Shown: one piece after another, positions 36,096-53,086 of the stretch
How positions within the stretch are numbered: position 1 is the first letter of the stretch
How the letters are laid out: the number at the start of each line of letters is the position of its first letter
NCBI GenBank assembly: GCA_012295275.1
Contig: CM022665.1
Span: 14,353,976 to 14,417,975 of the forward strand
Origin: Chrysomallon squamiferum
Lineage: Eukaryota; Mollusca; Gastropoda; Neomphalida; Peltospiridae
Length of the DNA: 64,000 bases
Direction of reading: 5' to 3'
Program-made: the position numbers and the translations under genes
The notes under the pieces: model-generated
The model's database searches: none
The model's input: the letters and a program-made list of their open reading frames with translations, nothing else
Told to the model about the DNA's origin: nothing

Positions 36096-36196
<101 letters not shown>

Positions 36197-36427
36197 ATGT
36201 TTGTGTCTGTCTACGCTCTCATATTCGTTAAATGCGGCATTCTTGATCAGAATGACCTCTCTCGCCTACACGCCATGTTTTAATAATATCACTCAACATT
36301 TTAGCTGTTTAATGACTGATATCAAAACTGTTTATTCCAGTTTTTCTGGGTCATACTCCATGCTCCATTGACCACGTTACAATAATTTTGCTCTTTTTAA
36401 CAACTGTGACGTGTTTCTGTTTTTCAG

Positions 36428-36673
36428 ATTATTGATGGTACAACCTGAGGAAAATACTTGAATAGAAAAAAGAAAGCTAGACCGGAGCTGAAAAAATAAA
36501 GCATTTTAGAGCAGCTGGGACACAGGCAAGCCAGTTTGAATCGGTAGATGAATTGTGTGTGCCAGTTACATATTGATATCTTACAAAAAAAAAAAAAAAA
36601 ACAGTGAGATTTATTGTTCTGTGCTCATGTTCCATTTTGTTCTCGATGGGGATGGATAGTGTTTTCTGGCAAT
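36428..36673 (+). promoter_or_regulatory. 5' leader of the WH1-CRIB gene with four upstream ORFs
   Basis: A pyrimidine-rich acceptor (tttttcag) ends at 36427, and the leader runs to the main ATG at 36674. It has four short upstream ORFs: 36435-36461 (8 codons), 36548-36607 (19 codons), 36627-36659 (10 codons) and 36646-36684 (12 codons). The last overlaps the main start codon in another frame. A 17-A run sits at 36585-36601. Such a leader would be expected to lower or condition translation. That the leader is transcribed is inferred from the acceptor and the position. Confidence 0.5.
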
Positions 36674-37735
36674 ATGGATGTTAATTTCGTATGTGCCTCA
36701 AGTGAAAACGAAATCAGGAGCAACAACTCGGGTAATTCCCAAGAAAGGGTGGCTGGTTCTATGTCTCGGAATACTCCAGACAAATTGTACTGTGCTCCTG
36801 AGTGCGTGCTAAAAACAAAACAATCAGTGGATTTGGCTAAAGAAGGTATCAAGAAAATCGTTGGAAAATATGAATCGCCCGAAAATCTGAACCTAGCGCA
36901 GTCTTCTGCAGATTATTTTGTCGATATGAACGGACTAGATAAAAGTTCTGGGGGACCGAACAGTTCTTCGGCAATGTCCGATGCATCTTCGGATATTTCC
37001 GAAGCGACTCCGAGTTGGACGGCCGGCGCTGGAGTAGCAAACCACAATTTCGCCGAAGGCGTCACCGACCAAGACATTATGCAAGTGGAGATGTTTTACA
37101 GAAGTCACAAGACGGAAGTGACTGTGTGTCGGTGTCTCGCCAACGTTTACTACGGTTCTGTGATGGATTCTGGAAATAACAAATGGGAATTTTTTAACAC
37201 GGGGATACCGTTGCTGTTGCTGGACAGTGGTGAACATCACCGACAACGTAAACTATACATCATCTTAGCGGAAAAAGGCACGGGATTTGTTTTGTGGAAG
37301 GACGTCATCGACACGCTGACTAACTACACGGCACCGCACAACACCTTCCACACTATGCACCTCAGCAGCGACCATACCAAACAGGTGGGCTTCAGCTTCG
37401 ACGATGGAAGTGCCGCTTCGGAATTCTTCGGAAGTCTGACGGCGCTGACGAGCAATCCCGATGATGATCTTTTTAATTTAAGCAACTCGAAAAAGAAAAA
37501 GAAGAAGGACAAACAGAAACAGAGCAAACAGAAGTACAAAGCACCAAAGAAAGCGGACATATCTCAGCCCTGCTGCTTCGTACACGTCACCAAACTGGAA
37601 AAACCTCAACTGTTTCCACCTCCGCCGAACCCAGTCTCACATTCGGCGGACGTGTTCAATAACAAACTGAGCATGCGCCGAAGCGACAGTTCCGAAATGT
37701 CCGACTCCACATCTCAGTCGGAACATTCAAAATAA
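36674..37735 (+). CDS. WH1/EVH1-like domain protein with basic stretch and CRIB-like motif
   Basis: Single-exon CDS of 353 codons. The first in-frame ATG is at 36674, with A at -3 and G at +4; the frame is open further upstream to a TGA at 36605 but has no earlier ATG. Residues 1-130 are Ser/Asn-rich and probably disordered. About 147-260 looks like a WH1/EVH1 domain: VCRCLANVYYG, a Trp-centred WEFFNTG, and a final VGFSFDDGSAASEFFGSL that matches the family's G-x-x-F...A-x-x-F helix pattern. Residues 273-293 are lysine-rich (KKKKKKDKQKQ). Then ISQPCCFVHVTKLE (296-309) resembles the start of a CRIB motif (I-S-x-P-x-x-F-x-H), followed by FPPPPNP and a Ser-rich end. In WASP the order WH1-basic-CRIB-proline serves Cdc42 and lipid control of Arp2/3, but here no WH2/central/acidic segment follows. 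Seen: motifs and order. Inferred: cytoplasmic actin-signalling adaptor. The exact orthologue is not recognised. Confidence 0.85.
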   Translation: MDVNFVCASSENEIRSNNSGNSQERVAGSMSRNTPDKLYCAPECVLKTKQSVDLAKEGIKKIVGKYESPENLNLAQSSADYFVDMNGLDKSSGGPNSSSAMSDASSDISEATPSWTAGAGVANHNFAEGVTDQDIMQVEMFYRSHKTEVTVCRCLANVYYGSVMDSGNNKWEFFNTGIPLLLLDSGEHHRQRKLYIILAEKGTGFVLWKDVIDTLTNYTAPHNTFHTMHLSSDHTKQVGFSFDDGSAASEFFGSLTALTSNPDDDLFNLSNSKKKKKKDKQKQSKQKYKAPKKADISQPCCFVHVTKLEKPQLFPPPPNPVSHSADVFNNKLSMRRSDSSEMSDSTSQSEHSK

Positions 37736-37916
37736 AACAAAGAATAGAAAATGTTTTATTCCACTCGAAGTTTGCCTTAAAGTAAGTTCGAAGATGTAAA
37801 CAACTTTGGACCAAATAATAAACCCAGTGTATGAAAACAAAAACGGCAAATTCCCGTTTAGTTTCGAGGCAGTTAAGACACACGTAAGTTTATCTCGAAA
37901 GATAATGCGGAATAAA
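37731..37916 (+). terminator. Poly(A) signals of the WH1-CRIB gene
   Basis: AATAAA hexamers occur at 37731-37736 (overlapping the TAA stop), 37817-37822 and 37911-37916. The second or third is the likelier functional signal, since the first would leave almost no 3' UTR. Confidence 0.4.
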
Positions 37917-38319
37917 ACGTTTCCCAGCGACAATAACTGACAAAGTTCACGAGATAATTATTAGCATCTAGACAACAATTAGAAATTCCTGACACTATAG
38001 AGAGATAGGGTCTTTTGTGTGCGACTTATTAAATGTTCTGACATGAATATAATAAACAATAGGTCATACCAGATAAGGGTAAAAACAATAATAATAAAAA
38101 TAATTTTAAAAGTAAGATAATAAATAAAATAAACAAATTTAATAGTAATATTAAAAAAAAAAAAAAAAAAAAAAAAATAAAAAGAAAGAAAGAAAGAAAT
38201 AAGAAAAAGGTGAAAGGTAAATACAAAATAGAGAAATACATTTTTAAGTAAAATCCATATTGGTGCTATCCTAAAACAACAACTACAAAACATATATATA
38301 TATATAATTCATTTTGACA

Positions 38320-39074: not shown

Positions 39075-39122
<48 letters not shown>

Positions 39123-49294: not shown

Positions 49295-53086
<3,792 letters not shown>

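Follow-up and report, generated by a model that had tools for sequence, protein, structure and literature searches.

The window analyzed here is a 64,000-nucleotide stretch of the genome of the gastropod Chrysomallon squamiferum (404.6 Mb in 22 contigs), taken from contig C1 (CM022665.1, positions 14,353,976 to 14,417,975). On its plus strand, a single coding exon at 36674..37735 encodes a 353-residue protein that belongs, by its homologues, to the MESR3 family (misexpression suppressor of ras 3). The protein is related in sequence to WASP and carries a WH1 domain, a lysine-rich stretch (residues 273-293), a CRIB-like motif (I296 to H304), an FPPPP site (residues 314-318) and a Ser-rich tail, in that order, and it is most conserved around the CRIB-like motif. 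The interpretation we favor, with a probability of roughly 55%, is that the gene is a gastropod MESR3 member encoding a WASP-derived adaptor that does not activate Arp2/3, engages a Rho GTPase through its basic and CRIB-like parts, and binds proline-rich or Ena/VASP partners through its WH1 domain and FP4 site.

The reading frame is intact from the ATG at 36674 to the TAA at 37735. An in-frame stop lies upstream at 36605, with no in-frame ATG between it and the start codon, and the stop-free run of 375 codons compares with a maximum of 166 in 60 first-order Markov sequences of 64 kb each. The top relatives among the matches listed, each 76% identical to the window protein, were one from Gigantopelta aegis (98% of the length covered) and one unnamed protein (100% covered), and because of this identity the reading frame was judged to be real.

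A family found from molluscs to arthropods

Searches with the window protein, a mixed profile and an arthropod-side profile returned 145, 142 and 200 proteins, respectively, and the best 120 of each were listed. The window protein and the matches listed from the first search make up a set of 121 sequences; a set of 240, gathered by similarity and not independent, comprises the window protein and 239 relatives. Alignments were made from 23 (A1), 40 (A2) and all 121 (A3) sequences of the smaller set and from 17 (A4), 33 (A5) and 81 (A7) of the larger one, with the rows of A1, A2, A4, A5 and A7 picked manually for their species names or diversity. Among the matches listed, the species-named members came from gastropods, bivalves, cephalopods, annelids and a nemertean, and the arthropod members from insects, crustaceans, horseshoe crabs, myriapods and a springtail. 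No deuterostome name appeared among these matches (120 of 145, 142 and 200). The gene is not peculiar to molluscs, since its family extends to annelids, the nemertean and arthropods.

The NCBI name MESR3 is carried by four arthropod rows (P0162, P0169, P0174 and P0181), the MESR3-named arthropods being Rhynchophorus, Euwallacea, Palaemon and Cloeon, and some gastropod members are named "misexpression suppressor of ras". The window protein is homologous to the MESR3-named proteins over both the WH1 domain and the C-terminal motif, and they share with it the order WH1, basic stretch, CRIB-like motif. The link to the fly gene runs through the NCBI names, because the Drosophila protein was not among the matches listed. 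A few public names in the set look wrong (P0141, P0175 and P0240, labeled nuclear respiratory factor 1, D-lysergyl-peptide-synthetase and pakB kinase).

A 2016 oogenesis screen assigns fly MESR3 a predicted pleckstrin-homology-like domain and connects the gene genetically with negative regulation of Ras (PMC4978916). Mosaics and germline RNA interference disturbed cyst encapsulation in that work, but transcript levels in whole ovaries did not detectably drop upon RNA interference and its authors call for further tests (PMC4978916). MESR3 was also named among the Ras/Raf/ERK components that modify Alk, and the same account gives no effect of reducing its dose on human ALK variants (PMC7486895). 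Our literature search found no paper joining MESR3 with WH1, EVH1, CRIB or Cdc42.

Sequence kinship to WASP

The WH1/EVH1 domain spans residues 133-260 (37070..37453) and is indicated by Pfam, profile, model and conservation. Pfam WH1 matched residues 147-256 with E = 0.0065 and 16.9 bits, under the 22.4-bit cut-off. In the AlphaFold2 model, blocks of 10 residues between 131 and 270 have mean predicted local distance difference test scores (pLDDT) of 82-98, and the model superposes on EVH1/WH1 domains with the PH-like EVH1 fold. The predicted WH1-like domain was therefore upheld by a sub-threshold profile match together with a confident model of the fold. Candidate groove aromatics are Y159, W171 and F225. 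W171 is invariant in the 121 sequences, F225 is conserved at over 90% and Y159 reaches 3.48 bits. A search with the single window sequence aligned W171 and F225 with N-WASP, and Y159 was matched by eye from the sequence.

When a family profile (23 sequences) was searched against the PDB, the best match was full-length N-WASP (E = 5.8e-5), with the WH1 and basic/CRIB regions collinear, and all four PDB sequences at E ≤ 10 were from the WASP family. An arthropod-side profile (17 sequences) found N-WASP at E = 6.3e-5, and all three sequences at E ≤ 10 were N-WASP. The matches to N-WASP stop at the CRIB. The order of WH1 domain, lysine-rich stretch, CRIB-like motif and polyproline proposed from the sequence alone was confirmed by the residue positions. 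The single window sequence was weaker, with N-WASP EVH1 constructs at 0.94 and 1.4 followed by three xanthine phosphoribosyltransferases at 1.7. A CRIB-only profile of 23 columns, made without the lysine run from 40 segments that were less than 75% identical (out of 238), retrieved four sequences at E ≤ 10: WASP (1cee, 0.049), N-WASP (0.24), an F1 capsule-anchoring protein (0.53) and PAK4 (a 48-residue chain, 1.3). An artifact of the lysine run was rejected on this basis, as WASP still ranked first without it, though with a top E of only 0.049.

Several observations weigh against a specifically WASP-type ancestry. Taken singly, the two N-WASP stretches were non-significant (independent E-values of 2.5 and 0.42). 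Structure comparison put Ena, Ran-binding and Dcp1 domains alongside WASP-type ones, and the scores slightly preferred the Ena/VASP EVH1. Likewise, a WH1-only profile scored the Ena-, Spred- and WASP-type exons of the C. squamiferum genome alike (WASP-type, 9.8 and 4.0 bits; Ena-type, 11.1 and -1.2; Spred-type, 10.1 for one exon; Homer-type, -0.9 and -1.2). Because neither part is decisive alone, the kinship rests on the combination of the WH1 domain with the basic/CRIB region.

The WASP-type exons, recognized by near-identity to an N-WASP stretch, lie apart from the window gene at C7:16700588-16701162; the part traced is the WH1, which is split over at least two exons. Further WH1 exons were located at C1:34393579-34394179, C5:5292608-5297556 and C1:19280948-19281100, which read, by family sequence, as Ena/VASP, Homer and Spred. 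A recently truncated or mollusc-only WASP was ruled out by the annelid-to-arthropod spread of the family together with these separate WASP-type exons. What had been described as a WASP-like front half does have the WASP order of parts without an activating tail, but it is a member of an old protostome MESR3 family and not a stray truncated WASP.

The likeness to WASP and N-WASP thus covers the WH1 domain, the basic region and the first half of the CRIB, in order, and includes an equivalent of Lys-235. The window protein differs from them in having no WAID, long polyproline or VCA, in the replacement of the HVG end of the CRIB, in about 130 additional N-terminal residues and in its single coding exon. 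Only 45 residues follow the motif, and a WAID is absent from them. A Pfam scan of the window protein picked up neither WH2 nor any other VCA part at E ≤ 10, in agreement with the forecast of a short Ser-rich tail lacking an Arp2/3-activating part, and WH2 was not among the Pfam families matched at E ≤ 1 by 23, 40 and 33 members. With a WH1 domain (under the Pfam cut-off in the window protein) and a basic region before the CRIB but no WAID or VCA, and with the H and G of HVG changed, the protein is not to be filed as a WASP nor as a consensus CRIB effector.

WASP homologues that lack the Arp2/3-activating CA or VCA are known as S-WASPs, short proteins described from some fish and basidiomycetes (Kollmar 2012, PMC3298513), and in this lack MESR3 resembles them. 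S-WASPs were placed in the WASP family by strong homology over WH1 and CRIB/WAID; those of basidiomycetes retain the CRIB and a WAID, which MESR3 does not have, and end soon after, and those of fish are described as lacking the basic, central and acidic domains while keeping a very short polyproline region (PMC3298513). MESR3 is far more diverged from WASP than S-WASPs are, and it spans molluscs to arthropods.

The CRIB-like motif and its surroundings

The lysine-rich stretch (residues 273-293, 37490..37552) occupies the place of the WASP basic region, as judged from sequence and profile, and K293 is the counterpart of WASP Lys-235, three residues before the CRIB isoleucine. The CRIB-like motif that follows, PKKADISQPCCFVHVTKL (residues 291-308, 37544..37597), was delimited by profiles, motif counts and conservation. 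These 18 residues form the most conserved window of that size in the protein (mean of 3.68 bits across 121 sequences, compared with 2.88 for WH1 and 1.41 for the tail). The pattern IS.P[CV].F.H is present in 239 of the 240 sequences; the exception, P0172, is without the motif histidine but has an H-V further on. Neither result that would have spoken against the original prediction, a lack of any WH1 match by profile or structure or a CRIB-like segment that varies among relatives, came about. A lysine is found at position -3 in 236 of 239 sequences, and C300 and C301 are cysteine in 234 and 202 of 239, respectively.

The CRIB consensus is I-S-x-P-x(2-4)-F-x-H-x-x-H-V-G. The I, S, P, F and first H are present, the valine place is filled by L, V, I or M (120, 113, 4 and 2 of 239), and the second H and the G are changed. 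The H place of HVG was replaced in all 239 (K in 120, S in 79, N in 16, T in 14, R in 8, and A and Q in 1 each), and the G place in 234 (mostly by D, in 123, or E, in 85), with the glycine retained in 5. The PBD profile was mostly silent on family members in Pfam scans of 23, 40 and 33 of them.

The consequences may be gauged from alanine substitutions reported for WASP (PMC6166713), in which changing Ile-238 reduced Cdc42 binding beyond measurement, F244A cost about 130-fold, H246A and H249A about 2.6 kcal/mol apiece, V250A about 20-fold and G251A about 10-fold, and removal of all six basic-region charges 197-fold. Ile-238, Phe-244, His-246, Lys-235 and the basic region are assigned a strong role in binding (PMC6166713), and each has a counterpart in the window protein. 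Set against the residue counts above, these values indicate that most of the strong contributors are present, with one strong and one modest contributor missing. The lysine that many members have at the H249 place could pair with Asp-38 of a GTPase. The strength of conservation across the segment, unmatched by any other window of the protein, led us to reject a decaying CRIB, and for the same reason we regard the motif as fixed and not degenerating. The suggestion that GTPase binding may be weak or lost was right in pointing to the altered HVG end, but loss of binding fits poorly with such conservation. Docking of the CRIB tail on the WH1 domain was also considered and rejected, since neither model gave confident structure there (10-residue blocks averaged a pLDDT of 54-67 across residues 271-310 in the window protein and 55-74 across residues 231-260 in a cricket protein).

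The polyproline that had been noted after the motif is present there and proved to be a specific FPPPP (residues 314-318, 37613..37627), a motif match of the Ena/VASP EVH1-ligand (FP4) type. It fits [FWYL]PxPhiP, the Ena/VASP EVH1 ligand, and is a predicted site, from sequence alone. This ligand is weak alone and has 4,994 occurrences in the human proteome (PMC8789275), so a single FPPPP proves little. We counted [FWY]PPPP in the flanks of the core, taken as everything further than 165 residues ahead of the motif and everything behind it, and obtained expectations from 200 shuffles of each flank. Of the 121 sequences, the window protein among them, 33 carried it, where shuffling predicts 0.07. 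In 22 of the 33 it lies after the motif, where all species-named carriers are gastropods, and in 11 it precedes WH1, where both species-named carriers are annelids. Members with FP4 sites carry one or two by pattern search. The strict FPPPP form is missing in the gastropods Patella, Physella, Babylonia and Batillaria, and a scan of P0122-P0240 for [FWY]PPPP found none.

A second [IV]SxPxxFx[HY] after the first was also present in 33 of 121 sequences (0.01 expected by shuffling). This second CRIB-like motif, of the ISAPFNFQHVTG type (P0041, P0038, P0055 and 30 others), begins 22-40 residues past the first, and every species-named carrier is a bivalve. Saccostrea, Ostrea and Pinctada are without the pattern, with a near-form, ISGPMHFEN, in Ostrea. 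Because related sequences are not independent, both counts show conservation more than repeated origin. Where many gastropods have FPPPP after the motif, the aligned arthropods instead have a conserved D-x-x-[RK]-[YF]-x-S-L-like stretch, which lies about +13 to +23 from the motif isoleucine in arthropod alignments and was not seen in the gastropods of the 23-sequence alignment A1. It is possibly a remnant of a longer GTPase-binding region.

Elsewhere in the protein, an N-terminal KYES segment (residues 55-72, 36836..36889) is conserved and partly helical in a low-confidence region of the model; residues 58-70 average 2.5 bits against 1.08 across region 1-128, and K65 and Y66 are almost invariant in the 23-sequence alignment. 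The Ser-rich tail occupies residues 330-353 (37661..37732). Upstream of the start codon, the 3' splice-site-like sequence TTTTTCAG (36420..36427, plus strand) suggests the end of a putative intron in the 5' untranslated region, so the "lone coding exon" of the original prediction holds for the coding part only, where its contrast with the split WASP-type WH1 of the same genome stands. The first of several downstream AATAAA polyadenylation-signal matches is at 37817..37822. Long simple repeats (TC, poly-A and others) flank the gene at window positions 36100-36195, 38146-38178 and 39079-39122, and several long open reading frames of the window also contain them. On the minus strand, a stop-free stretch at 50554-51033 has a secretory-type start and GPPLSACTEMFPVGH; it is reminiscent of a Reeler-domain exon, but a Pfam scan of it gave no match.

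Possible mechanism and competing explanations

If the favored interpretation is correct, the basic stretch and the CRIB-like strand would engage an active GTPase of the Rho family (Cdc42/Rac type) at an acidic membrane, the WH1 groove would hold a proline-rich partner, and FPPPP would recruit Ena/VASP in many gastropods and some annelids. Lacking WAID and VCA, the protein would then be an adaptor with no Arp2/3 activation, competing with WASP wherever a GTPase or ligand is common to both. Such a role could underlie the connection reported between the fly gene and suppression of Ras signaling. Competition is plausible because N-WASP V418fs, which has lost its VCA, is dominant-negative on nuclear F-actin, but the sign of the effect is not to be assumed, since a still shorter N-WASP truncation promotes nuclear actin assembly (PMC11720165). 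On the same reading, MESR3 would resemble the MRL adaptors (RIAM/lamellipodin) in joining a GTPase-linked membrane module to FP4 sites for Ena/VASP. MRL adaptors have RA-PH domains and many FP4 copies; MESR3 has EVH1 and CRIB-like parts and one or two FP4 sites where present.

The same data can be read in other ways. A CRIB-descended segment might now do another job, either as a membrane anchor, in which the lysine run is joined by a possibly S-acylated Cys-Cys, or as a site for a non-Rho partner. The near-constant cysteines speak for this, given that a CRIB needs none there, as does the loss of the HVG histidine throughout and of nearly every glycine, which became D or E in 208 of 239. We nevertheless think such a change of function unlikely, because what has been kept are the residues that contribute strongly to binding energy in WASP (I, F, the first H, the basic region and Lys-235), and because WASP and PAK4 chains still come up with the CRIB-only profile. 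Less probable again is a Spred-like Ras suppressor, whose EVH1 would recruit neurofibromin or another Ras regulator as in Spred1 and for which the WASP likeness would be secondary. Spred has a C-terminal Sprouty domain, which Pfam did not find in the window protein at E ≤ 10, no place for a CRIB-like part is known in Spred, and with either family profile every solved chain at E ≤ 10 is of the WASP family. Least probable, in our view, is convergence, in which an unrelated EVH1 protein acquired a lysine run and an ISxPxxFxH-like string by chance. The WH1 likeness to WASP is weak on its own, with Ena, Ran-binding and Dcp1 beside it by structure, but both family profiles rank N-WASP first with the two parts in order, and the CRIB-only profile ranks WASP first.

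Extended from this gene to its family, the WASP-derived adaptor interpretation becomes more speculative, and we put it forward as a doubtful scheme. MESR3 proteins would be a class of Rho-GTPase effectors derived from WASP and spread across the protostomes. Their ability to activate Arp2/3 would have been lost before the mollusc/arthropod split, HVG would have given way to sequence of their own, and particular lineages would have added FP4 sites or another CRIB-like copy. Such effectors would link Cdc42/Rac to actin assembly of the Ena/VASP type and not of the Arp2/3 type, and would hold Ras signaling in check. By analogy, a MESR3 protein may work like the input half of WASP. The WASP-like front half and the near-CRIB motif give MESR3 a testable mechanism as well as point mutants with which to probe it. 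If the kinship holds, the input half of WASP would have persisted in the absence of the output half from a time before molluscs and arthropods diverged, as judged from the species found.
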